Source of the DNA: Gammaproteobacteria bacterium
Lineage (GTDB): Bacteria; Pseudomonadota; Gammaproteobacteria; HTCC5015
Assembly: GCA_013817245.1 (NCBI GenBank)
Contig: JACDDA010000001.1
Span: 310,001 to 374,000 of the forward strand
DNA: 64,000 bases
Direction: 5' to 3'
Part shown: piece after piece, positions 30,295 through 62,842 of the stretch
How the letters are laid out: each line of letters begins with the position of its first letter
Numbering within the stretch: the stretch's first letter is position 1
Position numbers and translations under genes: made by a program
Notes under the pieces: model-generated
Told to the model about the DNA's origin: nothing
Databases searched by the model: none
Seen by the model: the letters and a program-made list of their open reading frames with translations, nothing else

Positions 30295-30601
30295 TTATAT
30301 CAATCCGTCTTTTTATTGCAAAGCACAATCTAGAAATATAAAAATTTTTATCAAGCGTCTATCGACTTGACCTATAAGTTGATTTGGTTGCTCAGCGGCA
30401 ATATTTTCTAAGATTCGTCCACCGAGTACGGAGCCTTCGCTTCCACCAATGTTATTCCCGTCTTATTTACTAAAATTGCTGAGTCGTCCGGATAACGTTT
30501 TGAGCGCAGCAATCCCCGTGCTTTTTTGTTTTTCGGTAGTGTTTGGTCTTGTTTCGGTATTTTCATAAAGCTTAATACTTTTTTCGGTCTCCTTGGCTAT
30601 T
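30295..30601. other. Gap between rpoH terminator and CRISPR trailer end
   Basis: No gene is supported. The open frame entering here from the array is an artefact of the 60-bp CRISPR period. I see no degenerate repeat copy next to the first repeat. Confidence 0.5.
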
Positions 30602-33600
30602 TTTCTAAGCTGCGTGTGCGGCAGTGAATTTTCCAGCCGTCTACTTTTCCGCCGGCTTCTATTTCTAAGCTGCGTGTGCGGCAGTGAATGCATTTTGCAG
30701 TTTATAGCGCCGCTTTTTTGGTTTCTAAGCTGCGTGTGCGGCAGTGAATTCCGAGCCGATTTAATTAATCCAGACTTTATTTTTCTAAGCTGCGTGTGCG
30801 GCAGTGAATGCTCCAACAAAGCAAGCAAGTTTTTCCGATGATTTCTAAGCTGCGTGTGCGGCAGTGAATGGCAACGGCAACTTGAATAACGTCAACGTGC
30901 TTTTCTAAGCTGCGTGTGCGGCAGTGAATATTCTTCGGTGATATCGCGACCACCGCTGAACTTTCTAAGCTGCGTGTGCGGCAGTGAATTACTGTTCGCG
31001 GGCAAGTAAATAGTCATGATTTTTCTAAGCTGCGTGTGCGGCAGTGAATAGCTTAGTTATAACTTGCTAACGACTGGTTTCTTTCTAAGCTGCGTGTGCG
31101 GCAGTGAATTTGCCGTTGTCAGCGCCCCGCCGATGATGCTATTTCTAAGCTGCGTGTGCGGCAGTGAATAATCCACCATGCGTTTCTTGTCGCTTAACAA
31201 TTTTCTAAGCTGCGTGTGCGGCAGTGAATCAGGTGTCCACTGCTTAATCGTCGGCATAGTATTTCTAAGCTGCGTGTGCGGCAGTGAATTCTGCGCGGTG
31301 ACAATCAGCCACGAGGTGCTCTTTCTAAGCTGCGTGTGCGGCAGTGAATTCGGTATAAAAAAATCATTAAACATACACATATTTCTAAGCTGCGTGTGCG
31401 GCAGTGAATATAAAGCGCAGTTAGTCGCGGCGATAGAATCCTTTCTAAGCTGCGTGTGCGGCAGTGAATGTTTAGTCCAACGTCATTATTTTGTTTAGAC
31501 TTTTCTAAGCTGCGTGTGCGGCAGTGAATCTCAACAAGATTGACGTACGCATCATCGCTTATTTCTAAGCTGCGTGTGCGGCAGTGAATGGGGCAGCTCA
31601 TCTTTTAGAAATTCAACGTCCTTTCTAAGCTGCGTGTGCGGCAGTGAATCAAGCGCTGAAGCCGCTGACACAATTCATCTGTTTCTAAGCTGCGTGTGCG
31701 GCAGTGAATCACACCAAAGAGTTTCTAATATTGAAAAATAGTTTCTAAGCTGCGTGTGCGGCAGTGAATAGGCTGGAGGCCATACGCCACGCGGTCTACA
31801 ATTTCTAAGCTGCGTGTGCGGCAGTGAATATTGTGTGTCAACTGTAACATTACCTAGTGCCTTTCTAAGCTGCGTGTGCGGCAGTGAATACATCGGATCA
31901 AAACTGCACGTCCGTTGACATTTTCTAAGCTGCGTGTGCGGCAGTGAATGCATATTGAAGTTATACATCGCGGTAATAGATTTTCTAAGCTGCGTGTGCG
32001 GCAGTGAATCTTGATATTGATTTACTACGGAAAATCAATGCTTTCTAAGCTGCGTGTGCGGCAGTGAATGCACAAATACCGGCGATCAAACAAATATATC
32101 GTTTCTAAGCTGCGTGTGCGGCAGTGAATAGTGGGTCATTATTTTTAAGCGCTGTGATCACTTTCTAAGCTGCGTGTGCGGCAGTGAATAATTACGTTCC
32201 ATTTTGGTCTATTTGTTCTTATTTCTAAGCTGCGTGTGCGGCAGTGAATTCGGCGGCGGTGGTGGTGGCGGTTCATCCGGTTTTCTAAGCTGCGTGTGCG
32301 GCAGTGAATGAGTAGCGATAACTCGCTACCATATTTCCCCTTTTCTAAGCTGCGTGTGCGGCAGTGAATATATAGCATGTGGATTTGCGGTTTTGAGCGG
32401 TTTTCTAAGCTGCGTGTGCGGCAGTGAATGATTCCGAGTTGCTGACTCAAGGAATCGTCTGTTTCTAAGCTGCGTGTGCGGCAGTGAATGCTATTAGCCA
32501 TAGCCACGATCGGCGATATTATTTCTAAGCTGCGTGTGCGGCAGTGAATACCACAAGCCGGCGCGATGGGCGACACGTCACTTTCTAAGCTGCGTGTGCG
32601 GCAGTGAATACAAAGCCGCAACAAGCACTCAAGTTACCGCTTTTCTAAGCTGCGTGTGCGGCAGTGAATTATTCTCGGGAATGCGTGCATTTTTGGTTCT
32701 ATTTCTAAGCTGCGTGTGCGGCAGTGAATGTGTTTGTTGATAGTCAGCTAAAACACGCAGATTTCTAAGCTGCGTGTGCGGCAGTGAATGCGCAGATGGT
32801 CAGCCGATGGGTATTTTAGGCTTTCTAAGCTGCGTGTGCGGCAGTGAATAAGTGCCGTAACCATCTGGCGCATTAGGATTCTTTCTAAGCTGCGTGTGCG
32901 GCAGTGAATGGGGCAGCTCATCTTTTAGAAATTCAACGTCTTTTCTAAGCTGCGTGTGCGGCAGTGAATGCAGCTTCAGCGCCGGTGATTACAGAAACTG
33001 CTTTCTAAGCTGCGTGTGCGGCAGTGAATCATATTCTGCTTCCCACTGATCAATCGTTAACTTTCTAAGCTGCGTGTGCGGCAGTGAATCCTTAAATGCC
33101 GCGCCGGCTACCTGCCTGGCTTTTCTAAGCTGCGTGTGCGGCAGTGAATTCTGGGGCGGCTCGATTATTCGTCAAGTGACCTTTCTAAGCTGCGTGTGCG
33201 GCAGTGAATAATAAATCGATGCTCTCGCCCGAAAGTTTTTCTTTCTAAGCTGCGTGTGCGGCAGTGAATCTTTGTTTAACCATTTTTTCTCGGTTTGATT
33301 CTTTCTAAGCTGCGTGTGCGGCAGTGAATGAGTTAAGATTTTATTATTTTCGAGTTGAGATTTTCTAAGCTGCGTGTGCGGCAGTGAATATCAAGTTAGA
33401 ATTATTAAGCTAAAGCAGAGCTTTCTAAGCTGCGTGTGCGGCAGTGAATTAATAGATAAGTATCGCGTAGTCGCATGGCAATTTCTAAGCTGCGTGTGCG
33501 GCAGTGAATCATGACGGGGAGTTAATTAGTGAAACAGAGGCTTTCTAAGCTGCGTGTGCGGCAGTGAATATAATTATGGGAAATAAACAATCGTTTTCAA

Positions 33601-35669
33601 TTTTCTAAGCTGCGTGTGCGGCAGTGAATAAAAGAATATTTTTCGGCGTACTTTAGTGTTTTTTCTAAGCTGCGTGTGCGGCAGTGAATCTTGCGGGAAC
33701 CGCTATAAAATATTTCTCAGTTTTCTAAGCTGCGTGTGCGGCAGTGAATATCGCCCACCAGCCAACCGAAAATGGCGCAGCTTTCTAAGCTGCGTGTGCG
33801 GCAGTGAATTTTATTATCAAATCGCAGACGATGAATTTGTATTTCTAAGCTGCGTGTGCGGCAGTGAATTTCAAAAAATAAAAAGCCAGCAATTCGGCGG
33901 CTTTCTAAGCTGCGTGTGCGGCAGTGAATTGGTTCTTGGCTCGGCATTTCTAGAATGTATTTTTCTAAGCTGCGTGTGCGGCAGTGAATACCGCACTCAA
34001 GCAGCGCGTAGTAATGATTATTTTCTAAGCTGCGTGTGCGGCAGTGAATACATATATAAGTGTTAATGACAGCATTGCGGCTTTCTAAGCTGCGTGTGCG
34101 GCAGTGAATTCAGCTTTGCCGCCCGACAAACAAAACAGACGTTTCTAAGCTGCGTGTGCGGCAGTGAATTTAATACATAAATTACAGGCGCATTATGATG
34201 CTTTCTAAGCTGCGTGTGCGGCAGTGAATCCCGGCTACTGCTGCAAGATATGTATCTACTATTTCTAAGCTGCGTGTGCGGCAGTGAATAACAGAAACTG
34301 GCAAATTGGAATCTTGCCAGTTTTCTAAGCTGCGTGTGCGGCAGTGAATGAGGACCCAGCGACGCTATAGCTTCTAAAGTTTTTCTAAGCTGCGTGTGCG
34401 GCAGTGAATCAATCCCGAATACAACGCCGCTCACCTGGATCTTTCTAAGCTGCGTGTGCGGCAGTGAATGCCTTTCGTAAGGCCTGGGCTTCCGCGCATT
34501 TTTTCTAAGCTGCGTGTGCGGCAGTGAATGCGCACTGCGCCAATATCGCCGAAAATGCTGCTTTCTAAGCTGCGTGTGCGGCAGTGAATTGTATAAGTCG
34601 CCGCCCCGAAGGGCGGCTGTGTTTCTAAGCTGCGTGTGCGGCAGTGAATGCAAACAGATACGCTATAACTATTATGGATGATTTCTAAGCTGCGTGTGCG
34701 GCAGTGAATCTATTACTGCTGGCAAGGTCACTGGTGTGACATTTCTAAGCTGCGTGTGCGGCAGTGAATAAAATGCAGCAAGTCAAGTAGCGCTGCTAAG
34801 TTTTCTAAGCTGCGTGTGCGGCAGTGAATAGCACAAAGCTACAAAAAGGATATGAAAATGGTTTCTAAGCTGCGTGTGCGGCAGTGAATAAGCTGGAGGC
34901 CATACGCCACGCGGTCTACACTTTCTAAGCTGCGTGTGCGGCAGTGAATCCGATGCTAGTGCCGGCGTGAGACAAGCTGGATTTCTAAGCTGCGTGTGCG
35001 GCAGTGAATTTGTCTCACGCATGTGTCAAGACCTAGCCCACTTTCTAAGCTGCGTGTGCGGCAGTGAATTACAAAAAGGATATGAAAATGGGAAATTTCA
35101 CTTTCTAAGCTGCGTGTGCGGCAGTGAATCACTATATAACTCGCACGTTGTACACGCTGCTTTTCTAAGCTGCGTGTGCGGCAGTGAATATCAACATTAG
35201 ATATTGTTTCAAGTGTTGATTTTTCTAAGCTGCGTGTGCGGCAGTGAATGCTTAATGCTGATGACGCGCACATTGTTGAGCTTTCTAAGCTGCGTGTGCG
35301 GCAGTGAATCGCTATATAACTCGCACGCTGTGCACGTTGCTTTTCTAAGCTGCGTGTGCGGCAGTGAATTGATATAGGCTTGCGTGTTGTTCTCATTACT
35401 CTTTCTAAGCTGCGTGTGCGGCAGTGAATGAAGTGATAAGGTTGTTTGGGTCGGAATATACTTTCTAAGCTGCGTGTGCGGCAGTGAATCATAAAACTAT
35501 CGTCAATCGCTATATTTCCATTTTCTAAGCTGCGTGTGCGGCAGTGAATAGGGTCTGGGTAGAGATCGGTCGTTTTTGGTTTTTCTAAGCTGCGTGTGCG
35601 GCAGTGAATACGTTCTTCTTTAACCGCGTACCACGCTTTTTTTTCTAAGCTGCGTGTGCGGCAGTGAAT
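30602..35669 (-). CRISPR. Type I-F CRISPR array, 85 repeats and 84 spacers
   Basis: 85 copies of a 28-bp repeat spaced exactly 60 bp apart (starts 30602, 30662 ... 35642), giving 84 spacers of 32 bp. By my reading all repeats are identical. In transcript (minus) orientation the repeat starts ATTCACTGCC and ends CAGCTTAGAAA, so the expected crRNA 5' handle is CTTAGAAA. It matches the I-F repeat class except for the hairpin-closing base and the first base. The leader end is on the right, beside cas6f, so the newest spacers are near 35640 and the oldest near 30630. Spacer n, counted from the left, starts at 30630+60(n-1). Phantom open frames arise on both strands because the period is divisible by three. 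Confidence 0.99.
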
Positions 35670-36044: not shown

Positions 36045-36623
36045 TTAAAACCAAGGTACGGTAGCGGATGCGCTTAATCCATAAAGATTAAAGCCGCCGG
36101 TAACGGCTTGTTCAACTTCCCGTTTGCTGATGAATAAACGAAAATCATTTCCGCCACTCAAACTATGCAGGTGAATGAAAGGTTCTTTCAGTTTTTCATC
36201 CTTAAAGCCTTTTAGAAGTACCAAGGCATTTTGTTCAGTGATGTTTTCGCGGCGCGCCTTACGCCTGGCGACACGCTCAATATTCGATTTTGCCTGTAAA
36301 CGACTAAAACAAGCATATTGTGAGATGCTAGCTGGCACTTCGCGAACTTTAGTGAAGTGTACATAATCACTAAAGCGGGCAAGCCATTTTCGAATATCGA
36401 GCGCATCAAGTTGAGATTGTTCATTTGCAAACAACCTCAATTTTTTTCCTAAATACAGCGTGGACTTATCATGCTCAGGAAACGCGACCGCAATTGGTAC
36501 TTGTTTATTGGCATCTTGAATTTCTACCAGCGCTAAATGAATTTGCTGATAGATCTTGGCCCATAGGAAATTTAGCCCGATTTCGGCATCGGGCAGCAAG
36601 GTAGCTTCAATGTAAAATTTCAT
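36045..36623 (-). CDS. cas6f: Type I-F pre-crRNA endoribonuclease Cas6f (Csy4)
   Basis: 192 aa. It cuts each repeat at the 3' base of its stem-loop and stays bound to the crRNA 3' hairpin in the Csy complex. The catalytic His29 falls at the same position as in Pseudomonas aeruginosa Csy4. An arginine-rich helix (RVARRKARR, residues 117-125) fits the RNA major-groove-binding helix, and SLSGGNDFRLFI holds candidate active-site Ser residues. It is the last cas gene before the array, 2 bp after csy3. It must process a repeat whose loop-closing pair is broken, so it may differ in RNA contacts from characterised homologues. Confidence 0.95.
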   Translation of the reverse strand: MKFYIEATLLPDAEIGLNFLWAKIYQQIHLALVEIQDANKQVPIAVAFPEHDKSTLYLGKKLRLFANEQSQLDALDIRKWLARFSDYVHFTKVREVPASISQYACFSRLQAKSNIERVARRKARRENITEQNALVLLKGFKDEKLKEPFIHLHSLSGGNDFRLFISKREVEQAVTGGFNLYGLSASATVPWF

Positions 36624-36625
36624 GG

Positions 36626-37666
36626 CTAATCCTTGTCGCTTTCGCCAAAGACACCACCACGCACTAAAACCGCCATTACATAGTGCTCTTCATCTGTGTT
36701 AGCCAAAGTTTCACCACGAGCGTATTTATCAAAAAGCGTATAAAAGTCTGATTTGTTTTTTGGATTACGGTAGGCAACACCTAAATTGGTTACAGCACCA
36801 TAAGGTTCTATTGCAATAGGGCCTGTTTCATTTTCTGAAAAGGCTGGGTACCAGGTATCAATAGTGCGAAGGGCATTGCCAATTTTTTGTGAGTGCATAG
36901 CGGCATTGTCATTTACTGCATAAAGAATCTTACTTTTCTTAGATTTACTATTACCTTTATCCATTACCAACTCTTCACTTGGATAAACTTCTTGTGCTTT
37001 GCCAACTTGTGCATATGCAGTGATTTCGAGCAGTAAAAAACGATCTCCCGATAATGCGCTTGCAATTTGGTCTGCCAATTCATTAATTTTTGAGTCACTA
37101 TTATCAAAGCTGCGCAACGAAATTTTTGTGGCATCAAACTTCCAAGATAAATCTGAGCCACTGTTAAGAACCTTAACGCAGACTTCAATATTTTCAGCGC
37201 CGACACGATTGCGCCATAAAAAACGGCCGCTCGCTATGTTGATTGCGTAACGCTTTGCTAATTCGGTAAAGCTATATTTTTCGATGTAGGCTTTTGCAAC
37301 AGCTGAATAACTTTTATGAAAATCAGCGTTATTGCAGGCCGATGGTTTAGCAACGCCACTTAGCACCTTCAACGTAAAAGTTAATTTAAGCGTATCTTGA
37401 TCTTGGGCTAGAGCGCACACATCTACAGTTTGTAAATTCGGGCTTTCCACTTTTACATCTAATTTTGCGGGGTCGTCTTTTAAAGCTTTCGGCAAGCGAT
37501 TGGAAATCGTACCGCGAACTGATTTTTCAATCAGTGCTAATGGCGTTGATTTTTCTGATCGCTTATCCCATGTCGTTCCATACATATAGCCATCGGAGGA
37601 CACCAATTTTTTTTCAAACGCCAATACCGATGCCTTGCCAATTGTTTGCGATTCATTCTTTGCCAT
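36626..37666 (-). CDS. csy3: Type I-F Cascade backbone protein Cas7f (Csy3)
   Basis: 346 aa from ATG at 37664-37666 with AGGAG upstream, giving MAKNESQTIGKASVLAFEKKL; an upstream extension to 37774 overlaps csy2 and lacks a ribosome site. Several copies of this RAMP-fold protein form the helical backbone on the crRNA spacer. Recognised by GYMYGTTWDKR, the GRFLWRNRVGAENIEV segment and the C-terminal VMAVLVRGGVFGESDKD. It follows csy2 by 16 bp. Confidence 0.96.
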   Translation of the reverse strand: MAKNESQTIGKASVLAFEKKLVSSDGYMYGTTWDKRSEKSTPLALIEKSVRGTISNRLPKALKDDPAKLDVKVESPNLQTVDVCALAQDQDTLKLTFTLKVLSGVAKPSACNNADFHKSYSAVAKAYIEKYSFTELAKRYAINIASGRFLWRNRVGAENIEVCVKVLNSGSDLSWKFDATKISLRSFDNSDSKINELADQIASALSGDRFLLLEITAYAQVGKAQEVYPSEELVMDKGNSKSKKSKILYAVNDNAAMHSQKIGNALRTIDTWYPAFSENETGPIAIEPYGAVTNLGVAYRNPKNKSDFYTLFDKYARGETLANTDEEHYVMAVLVRGGVFGESDKD

Positions 37667-37682
37667 GATGTTGCTCCTGATT

Positions 37683-38594
37683 TTAAACGTTAAGGTTTTG
37701 AGTGATGGATAGTGATTGTTGACATAAGTAAAGATTGCTGAATTCATCGTAATGGTAGTGCCACAGCAATTCATCTAACGCATTCAGCCGATAGGGCATT
37801 ACGAATTCACCGAGGGTTACAACAGCTTCTGCAAATCTATGCGGTGTTTCTGGGTCACGTTGATTCAAGGTTTCACCAGGAGGGATGAGTGGCGCTATGC
37901 CATGAAACCCAGTAGCAATTGGCACTAGCCAACCCGATGTTTTGCGCTTACTTGTCCAGGTTACCCTGCCTTCATCGTCTATTTCGCTACGATGCTTAAT
38001 GCTTAAATAATCAAGCAATGCATCGAGTGCATCTTGCCCTTGTTGCATAGCTTCTATCATTAGTTCACGACGCTCTATTAATGCATAGCCGGGCATTAGT
38101 TGACGTTTAAGTTTTCGCTCTGATACTTCGTCGTCAATCACATGAAAATCGACGTTGCCGACAGATAATAAATCACCGCCCGCGAATTTTAAACCGCCTA
38201 ATAATTGCAAATTAACTTGTTCTTGTAATTGGTTTTGAGTAAATGGATTGACGCCTTCGCACTCGATAATGAGCGAAACATCCAGATGGCAGCGGGCTTC
38301 TTCAATAAATGCAGAACGATTTCCATCCTTGTCTAATGGGTTGCCCGTGCCAATGATGGAATACACATAGTCGCCACGACCTTTGTAGGTTTGTAAATCA
38401 AGCCAATGGCAAACAACGCCTACTTTTGTGAAAAGTAAATCTTCAAAACCTGCCGTTATCAGTTTTCGCTGGAGTGCATGTACGGCGCCAAGCCATGCGG
38501 TTAATGCAGGAAAACCAATGGTGTAGGGGCTAGACAATGCATTCGCGTTTTGGATATGCAAATGCGGCAATAGCAAAATCCGCTTGATGCTCAT
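37683..38594 (-). CDS. csy2: Type I-F Cascade subunit Cas5f (Csy2)
   Basis: 303 aa. It caps the crRNA 5' handle and forms a heterodimer with Csy1. The N-terminal RILLLPHLHIQNANALSSPYTIGFPALTAWLGA is characteristic. The start overlaps the csy1 stop by 4 bp. It is expected to contact the handle CTTAGAAA deduced from the array. Confidence 0.95.
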   Translation of the reverse strand: MSIKRILLLPHLHIQNANALSSPYTIGFPALTAWLGAVHALQRKLITAGFEDLLFTKVGVVCHWLDLQTYKGRGDYVYSIIGTGNPLDKDGNRSAFIEEARCHLDVSLIIECEGVNPFTQNQLQEQVNLQLLGGLKFAGGDLLSVGNVDFHVIDDEVSERKLKRQLMPGYALIERRELMIEAMQQGQDALDALLDYLSIKHRSEIDDEGRVTWTSKRKTSGWLVPIATGFHGIAPLIPPGETLNQRDPETPHRFAEAVVTLGEFVMPYRLNALDELLWHYHYDEFSNLYLCQQSLSITQNLNV

Positions 38595-39850
38595 AACAAG
38601 CCCTCCTTTTGTTCTTCGATAAGATAATAGACATGCATAAGCTCATCATCATTCAAGGCTAAGGCTTCGTTACCCAGCACTTTTTTATAAGCTAAAATAA
38701 TCCAACGAGCGGCATTCTTTAGAAAAGCTTCTAACGCTTGGCCGTTCTCATCGCGCTCGTTTTGCCAGTGGTTATCAAGAATAATTTTCTGCACTTTTGG
38801 CAAGCTATCAAAGCGTTCGCGCAATGACCACCCCTTTTCATTTGCACGGATCTGCCAAATAATTCGTACTATGTCATCAAAAATACTTAACAGGATTTCA
38901 TCGCGACGAGTTCGCACTTTCAGGTTATTGCGAGAATCAGTTAGGCACTTATGCAATAACTCAAAGTTAGCTTTGAATTGATTAGGCCATAAGCAGTTAC
39001 TAAAAAAGTCTGTATTAGGTAAACGGATTTTTTCTGGCTTTAGGGTGGGTGGTATGCTTTGGAGTAAGTAGGCTTTACCACCGTATTGATTGTTCAGCAC
39101 GCTGATATTTTGAGGTTTTGTACCGCCGTAACCAATCACGCCGAGGTTATAAATGTCGTCAAATCCCGTAATACTAATTTCATTTTTCTTGCGTTGTTCT
39201 TTTGCTTTGGTAATCACATCACCGAAACGCATCTCTTGTATACGGTTACGTAGCACATACATGATGCCCGATGGTGTGAGCACTGAAAGCTGATGATAGT
39301 CATTTAACACTGGAAAGAAGACCTGCTTAATTTTTGAGCTCGTAACGGAAGCGGGATCGCTTTCCTTCATTGCCATTAAGCCTAATCTTAATTCTTCATA
39401 GCTTGCAGTAGGAATACTCAATAAATTTTTGGCAAGCTCTGTTTCTTGCTCAATATGAGAAATTAGCTGTTTTCCATCAGAAAGCTCGATCGTTAAAAAT
39501 TTGTACACATCTAGTGCAGCAGCATTTCCCAATGCATCAAGGTCGGCGCTGACATTGCCACTCCTAATGAACCCGTCTGTGCTGAAAGCGCCATTGGCAA
39601 TAACAGTTGACGTCTTAGAATTTTTATTTTTCCTGCCACTAGGGTGACTAAATGTGCAGGGATGTGATGACATGGAAATTTGTCCTGCTCTTCTAGCGGC
39701 GTCTGGTAACCAGTTATTTATATTAAATTCTTCGTCTGCTTCTAAATGAACGCATTGAACATCATGCTCATCCATACCCTCAGTGATAATTTTCTTAAGG
39801 CTTTTGGTTTTTCTGTCATTTAAAAAATCTTGAATTTTACTATCTAACAT
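38591..39850 (-). CDS. csy1: Type I-F Cascade large subunit Cas8f (Csy1)
   Basis: 419 aa. With Csy2 it recognises the PAM and starts strand separation. Family signatures seen are the YGGTKPQNISVLNNQYGGKAYLLQS region near residue 240 and LPNTDFFSNCLW. It lies 8 bp after cas3 and overlaps csy2, within the single cas1-to-cas6f operon. Confidence 0.95.
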   Translation of the reverse strand: MLDSKIQDFLNDRKTKSLKKIITEGMDEHDVQCVHLEADEEFNINNWLPDAARRAGQISMSSHPCTFSHPSGRKNKNSKTSTVIANGAFSTDGFIRSGNVSADLDALGNAAALDVYKFLTIELSDGKQLISHIEQETELAKNLLSIPTASYEELRLGLMAMKESDPASVTSSKIKQVFFPVLNDYHQLSVLTPSGIMYVLRNRIQEMRFGDVITKAKEQRKKNEISITGFDDIYNLGVIGYGGTKPQNISVLNNQYGGKAYLLQSIPPTLKPEKIRLPNTDFFSNCLWPNQFKANFELLHKCLTDSRNNLKVRTRRDEILLSIFDDIVRIIWQIRANEKGWSLRERFDSLPKVQKIILDNHWQNERDENGQALEAFLKNAARWIILAYKKVLGNEALALNDDELMHVYYLIEEQKEGLL

Positions 39851-39858
39851 ATTTCCTC

Positions 39859-42800
39859 CTATTTAATTTCGGCTAACCCAGTTTGCGGGGAGTAACTAAA
39901 TCTTTTGCTTCCATCTTCATTAACCGGAATTGAAATCTCACCAAATTTTGATGCGGCTTTTTTTACCGTTATACCAAACTTAGTGGCAGTGTGTTTCAAA
40001 ATAATTTCGTAGTCTCGATGTAGCCATAATCTATTTTCTTTGATCGGGTGTAAATGATGACTAATTCCCTGCAATAGCTCGGCTTTGGCGAGGTTACCTT
40101 TTTTATCCTTCTCCATAAAAACATACTTTGTTTCGCGTTCATCCGGGTTAGGCATAAGGTATAAAATATGTGTGGGCCTGCTTGCACGAAATCGATTCAG
40201 TTGTTGGGGTAAAGCGGTAAGCCACCAGCATTGACTCAACCATCCCTCAAGGGCTTCTGGGCCTTTCGCGTTAAATTTTGTCAGTGAATTCGCGATTGCG
40301 ATGTGCTCTAAATCATCAAGGCGATTATGTTGGTCTAATGTTTCTTGACGAGATATTCTCGGTGTTGCATTTATGCGTTCCTGAATAGATTTTTCATCGA
40401 CTAGATCATTCAGCTTATGGCTATTTAATTTCAGTACGCTCGTCTCATATCCCGGATGGCAAAATGCTGGGGTACGATTTTTAAATTCTATATTTAATTG
40501 CTTAAAGCCTTTAAGGTTGTATTGCAGCAAAGCCATATTGCAGCTTGCGGGCTCAACATTGCGATGGCGCAACACCCTGCCTGCCAATTGAATAATTGAA
40601 CGATAAGAGGATGGTTCGACTACTGCCCAATCAAAATCGTGATCGCGCCCTACTTCTTCCACCGGCGTTGCAACTAAAATATAAATAATATTTTTTGTTG
40701 TCGAATTTTTAAGTTGCTGCTTGATGTGCGGATGTTCGAACACGGCATCTGGCTTTTTTCTTTTCAGCACTTCATCCAAATGCTTTTCTTGTACGCTGCG
40801 CATCAACAGCACTTGTTGGCTATGGTAGGCCATCACCCTAACGTCGATATCATCAGGCCAAAGTGCATTCATCAAAAATTCAGTTAATGCTACGCAGGGC
40901 GTGATGTTGGCAACCCGTACTACACCAAACGATACCTGTTTTTTTGTGTTTAGATCTATTTGGTGATTATCGTTGTGCTTTTCAATAATTGACTGTTGTA
41001 CGGTTTGGAAAAAAACATTCTGTAAGTTTTTTTCGTTTACATCGGATGGCAACGTGATAGATGCAATATTTGCTTTACGTTTAACGAGTTGTTGTGAAAG
41101 AGATTTCACGCGCTGTTCAATAAATACATGATGGAAGGCAAAGAAGCTTGCCTCGTTTCTCTCAGTCGCTTGCGATACGATGGTTTCAATTCGTACGCCA
41201 TATTCGTCCACCCAAGCGCAGCCAATTTTTTGATTGACGTCACGGCTTTTGGCAAATAATTGCCAACCTTGTTGGTAGGCGTTGAAATATCCTAGCGCCA
41301 AATCTGGTGGAATGGTGGCAGAAGAAATCATGACTTTACGGCCAAGCATTCCTGCTAGATGCACTAGCCTTCCGATGGCGATTAAATCGCCGCCATCAAA
41401 ATCATCAATTTCATCAATCACCAAATCGGACGACATTAAACGCAAGCATGGCAAAATGTAACGACCGCCACGTTTAGTTTCTGTTGCTGCCATAATATGG
41501 TCGATGGTGCATGCCAATACAGGAGCGTATAAAAATTGCCGATCCTTTTTGGTGATTAAAACAGTCGCCAAGCCTTCTTCTGGAATATTACCATCGTAAT
41601 CAAATTCGCCTTCTAATAAGGTTTCCATAGATTCCGAGCCGAAATCCTCAGCAGAAATTTTTTCATCTTCTTTTTCCTGGTTCGCTTTATGAAGGTCGGC
41701 TACGGCTTTTGAGCCAATTAAAACCGCAAGCTCGGTTTCATCAAGCCCAATGCGTTGGCGGTATTCGTCACCTGTTTGCAAAGTCAGCGTACGCAGGCCA
41801 AGTGCTAAAATATAACGTAACTCATCTGCGGCAGGAGACAAAGCGCGCATAATTTTGGCATTGGCAAAAGTTTTACCGCAGCCTGTGCTGGCCATATTCA
41901 CTGTAAAAAAACCAAAGTTATCATTTTGTTGTTTTGTTATTTCTGCTTCGCGCCATTGAGTAATTTTTGTGACCACTTTATCTTGCCAGCCGTATTCTTT
42001 AGGGCTTTTTTGCATTAAATTCTTAGTTGCGTGGGCGAAGGGTAATTCTTTTTCAAATGCCGGCAACCAATGCACCGTGTTTAATGCTTGCTTGGCAACG
42101 CCATGTAAATGTTCGTCTAATTTTTGTTTGAGTTGTTTTGTTTTTCTATCGGTATTTGCATAAATATTAAGCTGACTCTTCCAATTTTTATCAGCAGGCT
42201 TAGATGAATATAAATGGTCACCCAACATGAGTGATAAGCGAGCGTGATGCAAGACAATACGCCAAACGCCATTTTCTAAAGACTGACCCAGTAAAGGTTG
42301 CTCAGATAGCGCTTTCGCTGCCCATTTCTTTATTTGGCTCAACCATGCAGTAGATTCACTCAAAAGCCCCTGCGGAAAAGTCAGACAATCATTTACATTG
42401 ACTGTGCTGCTTAAATTCTCATAGCCAAAAGTCTGATCTAAGTTTGCAAAAAGATCATGATATCTAGCCAATGGAGCACCATTGAACTGCTTTTGTAGTT
42501 GCGTCGATTTATCTTTATTACTATCGCCTGGCAACGGAAGTCGATGGTGCGTTAATATCAACCAAGCCACCATGCTTGCGAGCGGAGGCAATTTACGTAA
42601 TGGTGTTTTAATTGCATTTTTTGCCAGAGATTGCTTAAGGGATTCCTCGTTTATTTTTCCTTCGACTAAGCGGCTCAACCATTGTTCATCTGTTTCGGCA
42701 CCATTAATAAATGCATGCAACAACAGGCATGAAACCCATTCATGACGAAGTGGATCGCCCAATGCTTTATTCACAGTAAGTTTGCTTATAAAGCATGATG

Positions 42801-43179
42801 AAGCCTTACCCCAGTCATGAAATAACGCTGCAAGTGCCGCACATACTTTAATCAACGGCAAGTAGTGCCAATGACTCTCAAGCATTTTTATTTCATTTTT
42901 TGTGCTATTCACCGGCACTCTACCTATTTCATCAAATTGATTTTTGTTGCCGACCACCCATAAAAATTCACTTCGTGAACGACTGCGTATCCAATGACAC
43001 GAAACGGCCGTACTTTTGCTCGCTGTTTGACGTAGCATTTTTTTTACGGTTTGTAAGCCATCTTCAGTAATGACGGTTTGCCAAGTATTGTCGCCAATAC
43101 GATCTGCAAAAGCGTCGAGTACTCTTCGCGTTTTTTTGAGTGCATTTTTCTGGCATTGGGATACAAAGGTGACCATCAT
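39859..43179 (-). CDS. cas3: Cas2-Cas3 fusion nuclease-helicase (type I-F)
   Basis: 1106 aa. The N-terminal Cas2-like domain (MMVTFVSQCQKNALKKTRRV, to about residue 95) is fused to Cas3, the arrangement unique to type I-F. It is needed both for adaptation, with Cas1, and for target degradation. The HD nuclease motif is at 121-122 (LFHDWGKAS), Walker A STGCGKT at about 431-437, DEID box at 589-592, and helicase motif VI-like QLAGRVLRHRN further on. No truncation or missing key residue is seen. It overlaps cas1 by 4 bp. Confidence 0.97.
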   Translation of the reverse strand: MMVTFVSQCQKNALKKTRRVLDAFADRIGDNTWQTVITEDGLQTVKKMLRQTASKSTAVSCHWIRSRSRSEFLWVVGNKNQFDEIGRVPVNSTKNEIKMLESHWHYLPLIKVCAALAALFHDWGKASSCFISKLTVNKALGDPLRHEWVSCLLLHAFINGAETDEQWLSRLVEGKINEESLKQSLAKNAIKTPLRKLPPLASMVAWLILTHHRLPLPGDSNKDKSTQLQKQFNGAPLARYHDLFANLDQTFGYENLSSTVNVNDCLTFPQGLLSESTAWLSQIKKWAAKALSEQPLLGQSLENGVWRIVLHHARLSLMLGDHLYSSKPADKNWKSQLNIYANTDRKTKQLKQKLDEHLHGVAKQALNTVHWLPAFEKELPFAHATKNLMQKSPKEYGWQDKVVTKITQWREAEITKQQNDNFGFFTVNMASTGCGKTFANAKIMRALSPAADELRYILALGLRTLTLQTGDEYRQRIGLDETELAVLIGSKAVADLHKANQEKEDEKISAEDFGSESMETLLEGEFDYDGNIPEEGLATVLITKKDRQFLYAPVLACTIDHIMAATETKRGGRYILPCLRLMSSDLVIDEIDDFDGGDLIAIGRLVHLAGMLGRKVMISSATIPPDLALGYFNAYQQGWQLFAKSRDVNQKIGCAWVDEYGVRIETIVSQATERNEASFFAFHHVFIEQRVKSLSQQLVKRKANIASITLPSDVNEKNLQNVFFQTVQQSIIEKHNDNHQIDLNTKKQVSFGVVRVANITPCVALTEFLMNALWPDDIDVRVMAYHSQQVLLMRSVQEKHLDEVLKRKKPDAVFEHPHIKQQLKNSTTKNIIYILVATPVEEVGRDHDFDWAVVEPSSYRSIIQLAGRVLRHRNVEPASCNMALLQYNLKGFKQLNIEFKNRTPAFCHPGYETSVLKLNSHKLNDLVDEKSIQERINATPRISRQETLDQHNRLDDLEHIAIANSLTKFNAKGPEALEGWLSQCWWLTALPQQLNRFRASRPTHILYLMPNPDERETKYVFMEKDKKGNLAKAELLQGISHHLHPIKENRLWLHRDYEIILKHTATKFGITVKKAASKFGEISIPVNEDGSKRFSYSPQTGLAEIK

Positions 43180-44195
43180 AATGCTGTTGCCGTTTCGTCA
43201 TCATTTATATCAACAGCGTACTCAATATCTGCTATGGCATTTTCTTCTGGCTTGCCTCGTAGTGCTAATGCTTTAACTTGATCAAACATGAAATCTAATG
43301 CTTTGTGCTGCGCAAACGACAGCAAACACTGTTGACGGAATTCTTGCTCGGTGGCGTTTTCTTTTGCGCAGATGAAAGCCCAAGGTAGAACGATGGCATC
43401 TTTAATCAGATCAGCTATATCGAATACTAAAGCACCGCGCCGCGTTTTGCCGTGCATCACTGCGAATCCATGCGGAATTCCAAGCACCCACAAAGTGCAT
43501 GCGGCTAAACCATAGGCTAAATAATTACCGTGATTTAAAAAAGCATTCGCTTTGTCTATGCCTTCATGTTGGCGCACAAAGTCGGTGTGTTTAGTTCTGT
43601 GGGCAGCGTATTTATAGAGGGTTTTTGTTAGTTGTGCTTCTATAAGTAACGCTTCGTTCACGTTTGTGGCGGAATTTAATCGTTGGCTAAAGTTTTCTAG
43701 TGCCGTTTTAATAGCACTGTCCTCTACATCAAATCCCTCTGCTTTTAGATCGCGGTCTTTTTGCCATACGTGTACTAAATATTCGATGCGCGTTTTTTGT
43801 AATGTTTTGGCTGCAATCAATCGTTGTGCGTCATCAAACCAAAATGATAACCAACCTTGTACATATTGTGTTGGACGATATTCGCTTTGCGGCGTCATCC
43901 ATTCAATTTCGCAGCCCATATATAAAGGTGTACCACCACCACTACAAAAACCAATGAGCACACCTGCTTTTGCTAGCATGCGTACTGCTGCTTGTGTGAT
44001 AGACGTGCCGGCGCCCAACATGACAACCGTCGTGTTGGCAATAGGGATATTCCAATATTGATTTTCGTGTTTAGCCTCTTTTAGATAAAGTACGCGCCCA
44101 TCTTTTTGCATGACGCGACAATGTTCCAAATAATAAAGATTGGCACGCTTGGAGTGCAGTATGGCTTTTAAATCAGAGGGAGAAAAATCATCCAT
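43176..44195 (-). CDS. cas1: CRISPR integrase Cas1 (type I-F)
   Basis: 339 aa. It forms the integrase with Cas2-3 that inserts 32-bp spacers at the leader. Typical for Cas1f are the N-terminal PSDLKAILHSKRANLYYLEHCRVMQ, the MLGAGTSITQAAVRMLAKAGV core and the C-terminal ALVFDIADLIKDAIVLPWAF with conserved acidic residues. First gene of the six-gene cas operon, 112 bp downstream of a small hypothetical gene. Confidence 0.97.
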   Translation of the reverse strand: MDDFSPSDLKAILHSKRANLYYLEHCRVMQKDGRVLYLKEAKHENQYWNIPIANTTVVMLGAGTSITQAAVRMLAKAGVLIGFCSGGGTPLYMGCEIEWMTPQSEYRPTQYVQGWLSFWFDDAQRLIAAKTLQKTRIEYLVHVWQKDRDLKAEGFDVEDSAIKTALENFSQRLNSATNVNEALLIEAQLTKTLYKYAAHRTKHTDFVRQHEGIDKANAFLNHGNYLAYGLAACTLWVLGIPHGFAVMHGKTRRGALVFDIADLIKDAIVLPWAFICAKENATEQEFRQQCLLSFAQHKALDFMFDQVKALALRGKPEENAIADIEYAVDINDDETATAL

Positions 44196-58033: not shown

Positions 58034-58684
58034 ATGACTAATTTATTGCCTTTTACAAGTAACGGCTCGACTTCCATCACACTGCTCGCGTTAGAACTAG
58101 TCGCTATTTTTGTGAGCGCCTATTTTTGCGGTTCTATTTCGGCTGCCATTATTGTCTGTCGCTTAATGGGTTTGCCTGATCCGCGTATCACTGGCTCAAA
58201 TAATCCGGGCGCAACCAATGTTTTGCGCATCGGTAATAAAACGGCGGCCATTATCACACTGCTAGGTGATGCACTGAAAGGTTTCTTGCCTGTCTTTATC
58301 GTCGCGTATGGTTTTGATTTAGATGCGAAATATGTAAGCGCCGCGGCCTTAGGTGCATTTTTGGGACATTTATACCCGGTGTTTTTTGGCTTTAAAGGCG
58401 GCAAAGGTGTCGCCACTGCGTTTGGTATTGCCTACGGATTAAACCTTTGGCTAGGTTTAGCGGCCAGCGGCACTTGGTTGTTGATGGCGGTTAGTTTTCG
58501 CTATTCTTCTTTAGCCGCTTTAACCACTTTCTTCTTTTTACCTATTTATTGTTATCTATTCCTGGGCTCCACTCTGATGGTTGCGAGTATGAGTTTAATT
58601 TCTTTGCTTTTGTTTTATCGTCATCGCAGCAATATTCGTAATTTATTAAACGGTCAAGAAAGTCGGATTGGCCAAAAAAAATAA
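58034..58684 (+). CDS. plsY: Glycerol-3-phosphate acyltransferase PlsY
   Basis: 216 aa membrane acyltransferase that acylates glycerol-3-phosphate from acyl-phosphate. Conserved GSISAAIIVCRLMGLPDPR, GSNNPGATNVLRIGNK and KGGKGVATAFG motifs, with about five spans. plsY usually lies beside tsaD; here a 3.1-kb islet separates them, and a diverged copy of the last codons of plsY is found at its far end. Confidence 0.95.
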   Translation: MTNLLPFTSNGSTSITLLALELVAIFVSAYFCGSISAAIIVCRLMGLPDPRITGSNNPGATNVLRIGNKTAAIITLLGDALKGFLPVFIVAYGFDLDAKYVSAAALGAFLGHLYPVFFGFKGGKGVATAFGIAYGLNLWLGLAASGTWLLMAVSFRYSSLAALTTFFFLPIYCYLFLGSTLMVASMSLISLLLFYRHRSNIRNLLNGQESRIGQKK

Positions 58685-58689
58685 TGTTT
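58643..58689 (+). repeat. Left direct repeat at the plsY 3' end
   Basis: 47 bp covering the last 13 codons and stop of plsY plus 5 bp. It is matched at 61743-61789 with four mismatches and no gaps, at a distance of exactly 3100 bp. Confidence 0.9.
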
Positions 58690-58690
58690 A

Positions 58691-58728
58691 TTGATGGGTA
58701 TCGCGTTGCTCAACCCATCCTACGCGCT
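58691..58728. repeat. Solo copy of the MITE terminal repeat
   Basis: About 37 bp running from TTGATGGGTATCGCG to CCTACGCGCT. Same sequence and orientation as the right terminal repeats of the two elements at 59360-59708 and 60675-61021. It sits 2 bp past the left direct repeat. Confidence 0.85.
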
Positions 58729-58749
58729 GTGTCCGCGACTGTTGCTGCT

Positions 58750-58772
58750 AAAAATCCGCTGTTAAAGCGGAT
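58750..58772 (-). terminator. Terminator of the DUF3096 gene
   Basis: Stem ATCCGCT / AGCGGAT with 5-nt loop, followed on the minus strand by TTTTTAG. It is about 60 bp past the DUF3096 stop. Confidence 0.65.
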
Positions 58773-58833
58773 CTATGCTGCCGTCCTTGTGTATCGCGAT
58801 CGTCGTAGCGGAGGTTTGCTGCAACAAGCGGTG

Positions 58834-58977
58834 CTATATGCGCAGACCAAACAACTGAATCAAACCGACGACAATCAAGTAAATGGCCACCACGTAGTTC
58901 AGAAGCTTGGGCATCATGAGGATGAGTACGCCGGCCAGAATGGAGAGTATGGGGATGAGTTCGATATGCAGGTTCAT
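58834..58977 (-). CDS. DUF3096-type 47-aa membrane protein
   Basis: 47 aa, ATG at 58975-58977. Two hydrophobic segments separated by MPKLLNY: IELIPILSILAGVLILM and VVAIYLIVVGLIQLFGL. This matches the DUF3096 pattern (short N-terminus, P-x-LLNY turn, closing GLIxLFG). Function unknown. The ribosome site is weak (GAG about 12 bp upstream). A terminator downstream on the same strand supports a real gene. A longer plus-strand open frame over the same bases is a shadow. Confidence 0.75.
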   Translation of the reverse strand: MNLHIELIPILSILAGVLILMMPKLLNYVVAIYLIVVGLIQLFGLRI

Positions 58978-59359
58978 GGTGATTTTGATCTCGGTGGTTG
59001 GAGGTTCCTCAGTGTGCCATTACGTTGTCTGAATAGCGATTGAATCCGCCCGAAATAAAAGGGGAAAAGGTGGAGTGGCAGAAAATGGGATGGGCACAAG
59101 AAAAGAGAAAATGAGTCTGAGGCTCCCCCACTAAAACGAATTTTCAGGATGATTCCCGACCAATCGAACCATTCATGACAACCACATGAATTTTTGGCAC
59201 AGAGGTGCATCAGGGTTTTTATTGTCATTCAACAATGCTACAAAGCGCACTGCTTTAATTTATAGATGTCATTGATTCATCGAAAACATCGGCATAACTT
59301 AATGCCGATGAAAAAAAGAATGTTGGTATTAACAATAGTTTATATTGATGTTTGATCAT
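58978..59359. other. Gene-free stretch of the islet
   Basis: No supported gene. A perfect 9-bp hairpin (CATCGGCAT / ATGCCGATG, 59287-59310) is flanked by A4 and A7 and could act as a weak terminator. Open frames here lack ribosome sites and family resemblance. Confidence 0.4.
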
Positions 59360-59708
59360 AGCGCGTAGGATGGGTTGAGCAACGCGATACCCATCATCAT
59401 GCGCCCCTGTCACTCCACTCTCCCAAACTACAACTCCCGATTCATTTCTAAAAAACTTTTTCGTATCTAATTACAAATTAAAGAATAAGCCCGATCGTGG
59501 ACTCTTTACACATGTCCGGTTTTTTCAAAGCCATGCTGATCGTCGCAATACACCCACAGGATCGATTAATAATGCATTACAACGATTCGCGAAGTTAACT
59601 TGCAAAGAAATAAATTCCCCTTTGAATAAGCCCGTCGCTCTTGCGTCACATTTAAGCAACGATTTTTTTATCAATGGGTATCGCGTTGCTCAACCCATCC
59701 TACACGCT
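59360..59708. mobile_element. MITE-like element, copy 1
   Basis: About 349 bp bounded by inverted repeats of about 36 bp: left AGCGCGTAGGATGGG..., right ...CCCATCCTACACGCT. The whole interior aligns with copy 2 with scattered substitutions. No transposase gene and no clear target-site duplication. Confidence 0.75.
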
Positions 59709-59714
59709 GGAAAC

Positions 59715-60113
59715 TCAACTTTTCGGAGCATACTGCTCAAAGACCTGCTGCCCCGTCATTTTATGTGTCTCGTTCTTAAGCTCGTAGTAGCCGGGCTTTT
59801 CATCGAAAAATATTTCGTTCGTCAATTGAAATTCCTGATCCTGGAAGATGCCAGCAGGTAATATGAATTCATCACTTGGAAGCAAGTGATAGAATAAATG
59901 CGTCCCACAGATTGAACAAAATCCACGCTCGGCCCAATCAGATGAACGATAAATCGATGGCTCGGCGCCGCTAAACTCAACAGCGTTTCCGCAATGCACA
60001 GCAAACATCGGGCCTCCAGACCAACGCCTGCACATAGAACAATGACAAAGTCCTACTTCCTTGCATTCATTCGCCGCGACTTCTATCGAGCCGCAAAGAC
60101 ATTTCCCTTTCAT
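59715..60113 (-). CDS. GFA-family (glutathione-dependent formaldehyde-activating-like) protein
   Basis: 132 aa from ATG at 60111-60113 with GAGGAG upstream; a longer frame to 60194 lacks a ribosome site. Zinc-binding Cys clusters CLCGS, CHCSMCR and CSICGTH define the GFA/CENP-V fold. Family members bind glutathione adducts, but most have no proven substrate. It ends 7 bp from MITE copy 1 and lies 115 bp downstream of the VOC gene in the same orientation. Confidence 0.88.
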   Translation of the reverse strand: MKGKCLCGSIEVAANECKEVGLCHCSMCRRWSGGPMFAVHCGNAVEFSGAEPSIYRSSDWAERGFCSICGTHLFYHLLPSDEFILPAGIFQDQEFQLTNEIFFDEKPGYYELKNETHKMTGQQVFEQYAPKS

Positions 60114-60228
60114 AGCTTCTCCTCTAGATAAAGCAGCGCGTACGCCAAACTTACCCGACCCGAACGCGCGTAATGGCTTGCACTTCAACATCATTACTCA
60201 GTGCACTGAAAAAGCATCGCCATTTTCC

Positions 60229-60624
60229 TTATTTCATGGAGTGAAATCCAATTAAGTTGCCTTCAGTATCCTTAGCCAGCGCGCAGAAACCGTGCTCACC
60301 GATGGGTGTTTTTTCTTGGAATAAACTGCCCCCGTGCGCTGCCGCTCGCGCGACCTGCACAGCGCAATCATCACATCCAAAATAAACCAGAGTGCCACCA
60401 CCGCCAGGAGTAAAGCCGTCCATTTTGACCAGCATACCGCCTGCACCGTAGCTGCTCATCCCGGACTCTTTGTCCATAGGAAAACACCACATATCCATCG
60501 CCACATCAGGAATCGGACTGGGCATATGTTCAAGCCGAGTTTCAAGCACGGCCTCATAAAATGCTTTGGCACGCGTCATGTCTTGCACGTAAATCTCGAA
60601 ATGAACAACTGTGTTGGTTTTCAT
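60229..60624 (-). CDS. VOC-family protein
   Basis: 131 aa, ATG with GCAGGAG upstream. VOC fold: HFEIYVQDMTRAKAFYEAVL at the N-terminus, PIGEHGFCALAKDTEGNLIGFHS at the C-terminus, resembling the PhnB/glyoxalase-like bacterial group. Substrate unknown. With the GFA gene it forms the only intact enzyme pair of the islet, enclosed by the two MITE copies. Confidence 0.88.
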   Translation of the reverse strand: MKTNTVVHFEIYVQDMTRAKAFYEAVLETRLEHMPSPIPDVAMDMWCFPMDKESGMSSYGAGGMLVKMDGFTPGGGGTLVYFGCDDCAVQVARAAAHGGSLFQEKTPIGEHGFCALAKDTEGNLIGFHSMK

Positions 60625-60674
60625 CGTACTTCTCCTGCGGGTGACTTGTGATGATGTTTAATGAAGGTGTAGAA

Positions 60675-61021
60675 AGCGTGTAGGATGAGTTGAGCAACGC
60701 GATATCCATCATCGCCTATGTCATTCCGCTCTTCCAAACTATAATTCCTGATTTATTTCCAAAAAAACTTTTCCGCATCTAATTACGAAATAAAAAATAA
60801 GCTCAACCGTGGACTCTTTCCACATGCCCGGCTTTTTTCACAGCCATACTGATCGTCGTAATACACCCACAGAATCGATTAGTAATGCGTTACAACGATT
60901 CCCGAGGTTAATTTGCAAAGAAATAAATTTCCCTTTGAATAAGCCCGCTGCTATTGCGTCATATTTAAGCACCGATTTTTTTATTGATGGGTATCGCGTT
61001 GCTCAACCCATCCTACGCGCT
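60675..61021. mobile_element. MITE-like element, copy 2
   Basis: About 347 bp, same orientation and same inverted ends as copy 1 (left AGCGTGTAGGATGAG, right CCCATCCTACGCGCT). Its right end forms the C-terminal codons of the neighbouring pseudogene frame (RVGWVEQRDTHQ), so it seems to have inserted into, or just at, that gene. Confidence 0.75.
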
Positions 61022-61655
61022 TGTTACGTGATTGAATTGCCAACATAACCTTTGGATGATCTGGATCAATTTCCAAAAGCTCTTGAACTACATGCTTTAA
61101 CGCTTTCCTACAGTTTTTTGTTGAGTCTTGAATATCTTGCTCACGAGCCTTCAAATAATTTACCATTTCTTCACTATTGAAATTAATTTCTCTAGATTTC
61201 AGGTGGACGAGAGAGTTTCGATCCTTGTGGAGACGCTTTAATGATTCGTAAGCTTGACCAGATTTTGACATTTCTTTTCCTGTGATCAGTTTAGGAATAA
61301 TCAGCCACTTTGATATAAAGTCTAGTTTATCCAAGTGATCTTTAGAATATTTATCTCCCAAACAAGATGCAGCATAATCATAAATAAAGGCTTCGAAGTA
61401 CATTGCTGTGAACACGATCGCAATAATGCACGACTGATCTCTAGCCTCTTCTAGTGGATCTAATTCTATAAGCAGAGAATAATATTAGGATGGAGGATCT
61501 TCAGGGTCATCACAGCTTGATAGCAATGAAGAAATATCAGCCCAAAGCTTCTACACCTTTGGATTTATTTCCTCAAAAGTATCCAGCTTGATTTCCGCAA
61601 TCCATCTAAACTTATCGTCTCCCCCTAAGCGGAAATATGTTTCAAATCTTTCCAT
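60981..61655 (-). pseudogene. Decayed hypothetical gene with two stops
   Basis: A single frame from ATG at 61653-61655 (MERFETYFRLGGDDKFRWIAEIKLDTF) is broken by TAG at codon 35 and TAA at codon 57. It then stays open for about 168 codons (ELDPLEEARDQ, FEAFIYDYAAS, SLKRLHKDRNSLVHLKSREI). The last 12 codons lie in the terminal repeat of MITE copy 2, so the natural end is probably lost. I do not recognise the family; the HKDRNSLVH stretch recalls HEPN-like or abortive-infection helices, but weakly. Confidence 0.65.
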
Positions 61656-61742
61656 ATGGTTTCACATAACATTTGTATAGGGGCCTGAAGACAGATATTC
61701 CAGGAATTAAAATTCAATAAGCTCAACTCGATTGATCCTAGC

Positions 61743-61789
61743 TTATTACACGGCCAAGAAAGTCGCATTGGTCAAAAAAAATAATGTTT
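61743..61789 (+). repeat. Right direct repeat, diverged plsY 3' end
   Basis: 47 bp matching 58643-58689 with four mismatches. It still reads LLHGQESRIGQKK-stop, against LLNGQESRIGQKK in plsY. Only this tail is present; the sequence before it is unrelated to plsY. Confidence 0.9.
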
Positions 61790-61798
61790 CCTGCTTAC

Positions 61799-62842
61799 CT
61801 AACGAGTACTTAAAGGCCAACGCGCACGCGCGCGAATAAAATGGTCGACTGGATGCTGCTGCGCCGTTTCCACATAAAAGCTACCGACCAAGGCAATCAT
61901 CGCGCCGTTATCAGTACAAAATTCGATGCGCGGATAAAATACCTCTACGCCGCGCTGCTCACCCAACGCGCGCAATTGCGCTCGCAAACGCCGATTGGCG
62001 CCTACGCCACCGGCAACCACTATGCGTTTCAAACCCGTTTGTTGCAAAGCGCGATCGACCTTCATAGATAAGGTGTCTACCACCGCTTCTTCAAATGCGC
62101 GGGCAATATCCGCACGCGTTTGTGCATCCATCGCAGAACCATCTAATAATCGCTGAATCGTTAACGCCACAGCGGTTTTTAAACCACTAAAACTAAAATC
62201 TAGCCCAGGTCTGTCGGTCATAGGACGAGGGAAACGGGCTTTACCTTGAAACCGTGAAGCATCTCCGTGCTCAGCCAAGGCAGCCAAGGCCGGCCCACCG
62301 GGATAACCTAAGCCTAATAATTTGGCTGTTTTATCAAACGCCTCACCGGCCGCGTCATCCAAACTTTGTCCCAGTAATTCATATTGCCCCAACGCGCTTA
62401 CCGCCATCAGCTGAGTGTGGCCACCGGATACTAATAAGGCTAAAAAAGGAAATTCAGGCGCGGGTTCTTCTAATAACGGCGCTAATAAATGGCCTTCCAT
62501 GTGATGTACACCTATCGCGGGACAACCCAAGCTCCAGGCTAAGGATTTCGCAAAAGCAGCGCCGGTTAACAAGGCGCCTATCAGGCCGGGGCCTTCGGTA
62601 TAGGCAATCGCATCGAAGCTATTTGGATCAATTTGGGTTTCCGCCAATAATTGTTGATACAGCGCGGGCAAGCGCCGCACATGATCTCGTGAGGCTAATT
62701 CGGGAACGACCCCGCCGTATTCGGCATGCAAAGCGACTTGGGAATGCAAAACATGCCCCAACAAACCCTGCTGACGATCATAAATCGCCAATCCGGTCTC
62801 ATCGCAGGATGTTTCTATGCCTAAAACCCTTATTGTTTTCAT
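61799..62842 (-). CDS. tsaD: tRNA N6-adenosine threonylcarbamoyltransferase
   Basis: 347 aa. It transfers threonylcarbamoyl from its adenylate to A37 of ANN-decoding tRNAs, with TsaB and TsaE. The N-terminal [17 protein letters not shown], metal ligands HHMEGH and the ASKHA nucleotide-binding segments ([23 protein letters not shown]) are intact. Divergent from rpsU, the classical gammaproteobacterial arrangement. Confidence 0.97.

Follow-up and report, generated by a model that had tools for sequence, protein, structure and literature searches.

How did a small block of accessory genes come to lie between plsY and tsaD, with the end of plsY repeated on its far side? The locus that raises this question was analysed within a 64-kb stretch of DNA, referred to below as the window. 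A preliminary description of this DNA read the islet as an element integrated at the 3' end of a protein gene that had brought its own copy of the gene's tail, and suggested that the plsY tail may be an unrecognised attachment site. The following features form the borders of the islet.

58034..58684, + strand: plsY, glycerol-3-phosphate acyltransferase gene, complete, native left flank (PF02660, E=1.6e-49)
58643..58689, + strand: left repeat copy, plsY 3' end (sequence comparison)
61743..61789, + strand: right copy of the plsY tail, beside tsaD at the ancestral plsY end; presumed non-functional remnant
61799..62842, - strand: tsaD, native right flank (PF00814, E=1.4e-96)

The repeated plsY tail and the ancestral junction

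The repeat is 47 bp long and consists of the last 13 codons of plsY, the stop codon, and 5 bp beyond it. Its two direct copies (58643-58689 and 61743-61789) are offset by exactly 3100 bp and agree without gaps at 43 of 47 positions, which gives an overall identity of 91% with a longest identical run of 17 bp. The local alignment score of the pair was 37, as against a best score of 14 among 300 shuffles, and a chance origin of the repeat is excluded. The left tail reads LLNGQESRIGQKK and the right tail LLHGQESRIGQKK. The four mismatches amount to one residue change (N to H) and three synonymous changes. Thus, the exact recurrence at 3100 bp with four mismatches, and the coding of the same tail except for one residue, are both as the preliminary description had them. 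The similarity of the two copies breaks off sharply at both repeat ends, and comparison across the repeat boundaries showed that the right copy retains no plsY sequence from further upstream than the tail. The final shared TTT of the left copy may be part of the end of the REP-type repeat beginning at that point, as other repeat ends likewise begin with TTTAT. No further gene-tail repeats of this kind were seen within the window. The window also holds a CRISPR array (30567-35600 and 36045-44195) with at least 84 matching copies at a 60-bp period. Its repeat, TTTCTAAGCTGCGTGTGCGGCAGTGAAT, resembles type I-F, and ORFs of cas-like sizes adjoin the array.

plsY and tsaD are convergent here, ending at 58684 and 61799, respectively. 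They had been described as normal neighbours, and in relatives they are indeed commonly convergent neighbours: the spacing is at most 300 bp at 95 of 194 distinct plsY loci (median 51 bp, counted between the last matched codons of the two genes), while tsaD lies elsewhere or off the contig at 73 of the 194. At the islet, the distance from the last codon of the right tail to the last codon of tsaD is 21 bp (3121 - 3100). Because this spacing matches the ancestral distance, the right copy corresponds to the former end of plsY, which makes the 3.05 kb separating the copies an insertion. On the other side, bioC-bioH stands head to head with plsY, as it does in the same-family genomes G002 and G003 and in other genomes. 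The conservation of this flank indicates that the working plsY is in its native place and that neither flank has moved. In other words, the islet is an insertion at the ancestral plsY-tsaD junction. In a further genome of the same family, G001 (L133 633-2837), plsY was undetected and bioH directly follows tsaD; plsY has possibly been lost or replaced there.

Cargo and REP-type repeats of the islet

Between the two tails lie accessory genes and mobile repeats, in keeping with the preliminary description.

58687..58731, - strand: solo REP-like palindrome, GTAG-tagged, abutting the plsY stop
58834..58977, - strand: gene for a DUF3096 small membrane protein (PF11295, E=5.2e-17)
59360..59708, no strand assigned: 348-bp non-autonomous repeat with REP-like inverted ends, copy 1
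59715..60107, - strand: GFA-family gene, whose ORF may extend to 60194 (PF04828, E=5.5e-14)
60229..60624, - strand: glyoxalase/VOC-family gene (PF00903, E=3e-6)
60675..61021, no strand assigned: 348-bp repeat copy 2, in the same orientation as copy 1
60981..61655, - strand: decayed gene with two in-frame stops, its C-terminus running into a REP end

The cargo is foreign-looking on three counts: the GFA protein shares 70% identity with a protein of Aeromonas caviae, relatives of the decayed gene are carried by Pseudomonas and Thiothrix plasmids, and GC, which is 0.43-0.53 in the flanks, drops to 0.37 across the decayed gene. The decayed gene found no match among the sampled genomes of the class, and the islet DNA found none in plasmids. 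Rfam gave a sub-threshold match only, and PADLOC detected no defence family. Integron cassettes were considered as the genes share one strand, and were rejected because, on our own reading, the core motifs of the REPs are wrongly ordered. The preliminary description stated that no integrase remains. This is borne out: no tyrosine-recombinase motif was found in a scan of the window, and a profile search of the islet genes (DUF3096, GFA, VOC, and decayed gene) gave no integrase match.

The islet contains five REP copies, with palindromes and inverted pairs. The two copies of the 348-bp repeat flank the GFA and glyoxalase-like genes and are 84-92% identical across their aligned parts, and the repeat interior had no further occurrence either in the islet's own genome or among 368 others of the class. 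The REP family itself was found in the islet and at two other places in the genome only. On contig C7, a 222-bp relative of the REP-ended repeats (L147 3009-3230) precedes a gene resembling superoxide dismutase, and a lone REP lies on contig C1 (L148 2814-2850). The genome has three Y1 transposase genes; the stretches surrounding these yielded no copy of the islet REP.

Could the REPs themselves have produced the second tail? REP/RAYT-type transposition of the REP-ended repeats would fit with the palindrome that abuts the plsY stop, the number of REPs in the islet, and the presence of Y1 transposase genes. However, the right tail copy is not adjacent to any REP, the family was found in so few places, and REP-type elements are not known to duplicate 47 bp of their target. 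We regard such an origin of the tail duplication as highly improbable.

The plsY-tsaD gap in other genomes

The preliminary description proposed a comparison of plsY-tsaD intervals across relatives. This comparison revealed empty as well as variably filled sites, whose absence would have counted against the earlier reading; the empty ones were seen in distant relatives only. At 26 of the 194 distinct plsY loci, other DNA of 0.3-14.3 kb lies between plsY and tsaD, and in E. coli the gap is occupied by ttdRABT. The gap is an ordinary insertion hot spot for accessory DNA, since conserved neighbours hold varied accessory DNA (95 loci abutting, 26 filled). An insert of ~14 kb in the same-family genome G002 (L132 986-15277) carries ebo-like genes as read from ORFs (UbiA-like, dehydroquinate-synthase-like, and TatD-like), with neither a tail repeat nor an integrase motif detected in it.

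Is the plsY tail an attachment site? A repeated plsY tail was present in none of the 26 filled gaps, and no real tail repeat was found at any of the 194 loci. The best tail-repeat score among relatives, at locus L107, came from a short AAGTCGT-type repeat beside the stop and not from a copy of the gene tail. The integrase search in larger inserts that had also been proposed detected none: no tyrosine-recombinase motif was found in the 26 filled gaps by a motif scan of limited sensitivity, which recovered two of the three known tyrosine recombinases of the source genome. Integrase motifs at L049, L056, and L089 lie downstream of tsaD, outside the gap. In E. coli, every one of the 5,375 matching genomes (of 5,426) has an unbroken plsY end. 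A protein search found no plsY in viral contigs, and a degenerate pattern for the plsY C-terminus gave two matches there, neither of which held a PlsY gene. Finally, two of the three tyrosine recombinases in the source genome resemble XerC/XerD, and no obvious phage-type integrase is among them. The third is XerC-like, about 280-294 aa long, and adjoins an IS91-like transposase on contig C15 (L146, 3140 bp), according to ORF reading. These four tests (filled gaps, E. coli, viral contigs, and the genome's own recombinases) together lead to the conclusion that the plsY tail is not an attachment site in general. The earlier reading of an element at the plsY 3' end thus holds for an insertion at the ancestral junction and for foreign-looking cargo. 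No other genome examined supports its proposal that the plsY tail may be an unrecognised attachment site.

Origin of the islet and comparison with known systems

Islands at gene 3' ends are judged by flanking direct repeats drawn from the gene tail, an integrase inside the element, and reuse of the site in relatives, and it is the repeats that the islet displays. Several observations would be accounted for by a site-specific integrative element that had the 3' end of plsY for its attachment site, restored the gene with a tail of its own, and later lost its integrase. The imperfect direct repeats run from inside the gene to just beyond its stop, plsY is whole, the displaced tail is on the far side, and foreign cargo lies between. 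There are also precedents: imperfect repeats and gene ends supplied by the island are known from dusA islands (PMC4482086), and SGI1 integrates at the trmE 3' end (PMC8409611). Against this stand the results from the window, the genome's recombinases, the other filled gaps, E. coli, and the viral contigs given above, and no paper in the collection searched joins plsY, a genomic island, and an attachment site. A private element whose integrase was lost would still be compatible with these results because the closest PlsY in other genomes is only ~60% identical. Overall, we consider a lost element of this kind somewhat unlikely. A narrower form, in which the tail would serve a rare and undescribed circularising element of this lineage as attachment site, with the islet as its stripped remnant, appears quite unlikely; if true, it would make a conserved coding sequence the target of a new integration site.

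Alternatively, plsY and adjoining DNA could have been duplicated in tandem within the genome, with everything except the second copy's tail later lost by deletion. This would also leave a complete plsY on the left and a coding tail in the expected place on the right. The H of the right copy is absent at that position from the listed tails of relatives, as expected for a non-functional remnant. However, duplication alone does not explain the foreign cargo, no plsY sequence is left upstream of the right tail, and drift would be expected to yield mainly non-synonymous changes. Of the four differences, three are synonymous, an outcome with P=0.026 had the right copy done nothing but drift. The bias is weaker if the left copy was also changing (P about 0.17, a rough estimate), and three synonymous changes are few. 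The synonymous excess (P=0.026) suggests that the tails probably diverged in two lineages while both were in use, and we judge an origin by duplication to be unlikely.

The explanation that we favour, tentatively and at a little under an even chance, is a one-off import of accessory genes by recombination at an ordinary hot spot. The donor would have been a related bacterium with accessory genes already behind its own plsY. One side would have been joined by homologous pairing in or near plsY, and the other by an illegitimate or short-homology join that severed the resident plsY shortly before its end. The final 13 codons and stop of the resident gene would then have been left beside tsaD, while the incoming end completed the working plsY. 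Inside the islet, REP-ended repeats and cargo may have been duplicated or have decayed. The abrupt loss of similarity upstream of the repeat points to a breakpoint rather than a fade, and filled gaps elsewhere carry accessory DNA with no tail repeat, which argues for import. Homology-assisted integration at one end has been described for competent bacteria and, at low frequency, for E. coli (PMC3240628), and duplications can also arise on transformation with repeated DNA (PMC3784515). The genome has a ComEC-type gene, which DNA uptake requires; by itself this is no proof of natural competence. We infer import, with its related donor, one-sided mechanism, and order of events, from a single instance with no close relative. 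An attL/attR pair would give the same picture as an import scar, and import, site-specific integration, and duplication with decay share a geometry that makes them inseparable from one instance.

The arrival of the islet was most likely a one-off recombination accident and not the work of a mobile element for which this is a regular site. The plsY-tsaD gap is an ordinary landing place for accessory genes across Gammaproteobacteria, and the islet is one clear case in which an insertion left a readable scar in the form of a duplicated gene tail. It also serves as a warning that gene-tail repeats flanking an insert do not alone prove a site-specific element.

How does the islet compare with known systems? 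With SGI1 at trmE it shares a whole gene, a tail copy beyond the insert, and accessory cargo. It differs from SGI1-like islands in its size of only 3.1 kb, in the lack of detected integrase or excision functions and of a second plsY example, and in repeats that are diverged and share only a short identical run. dusA-specific islands (PMC4482086) likewise have imperfect direct repeats within a housekeeping gene whose end the island can supply, but they occupy the 5' end of the gene, share a common integrase family, and are found in >200 genomes, none of which applies to the islet. The islet's palindromes resemble the GTAG-tagged ~35-bp palindromes and inverted pairs of REPs and REPINs (PMC3733652, PMC3116915), whereas its pairs are spaced by about 270-625 bp and are seldom found in the genome. 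A homology-facilitated origin of the islet is inferred from sequence with its donor unseen, unlike the products of homology-facilitated illegitimate recombination (PMC3240628). With that process the islet would share one homologous and one illegitimate junction and the import of foreign DNA, for which no dedicated recombinase gene is needed.
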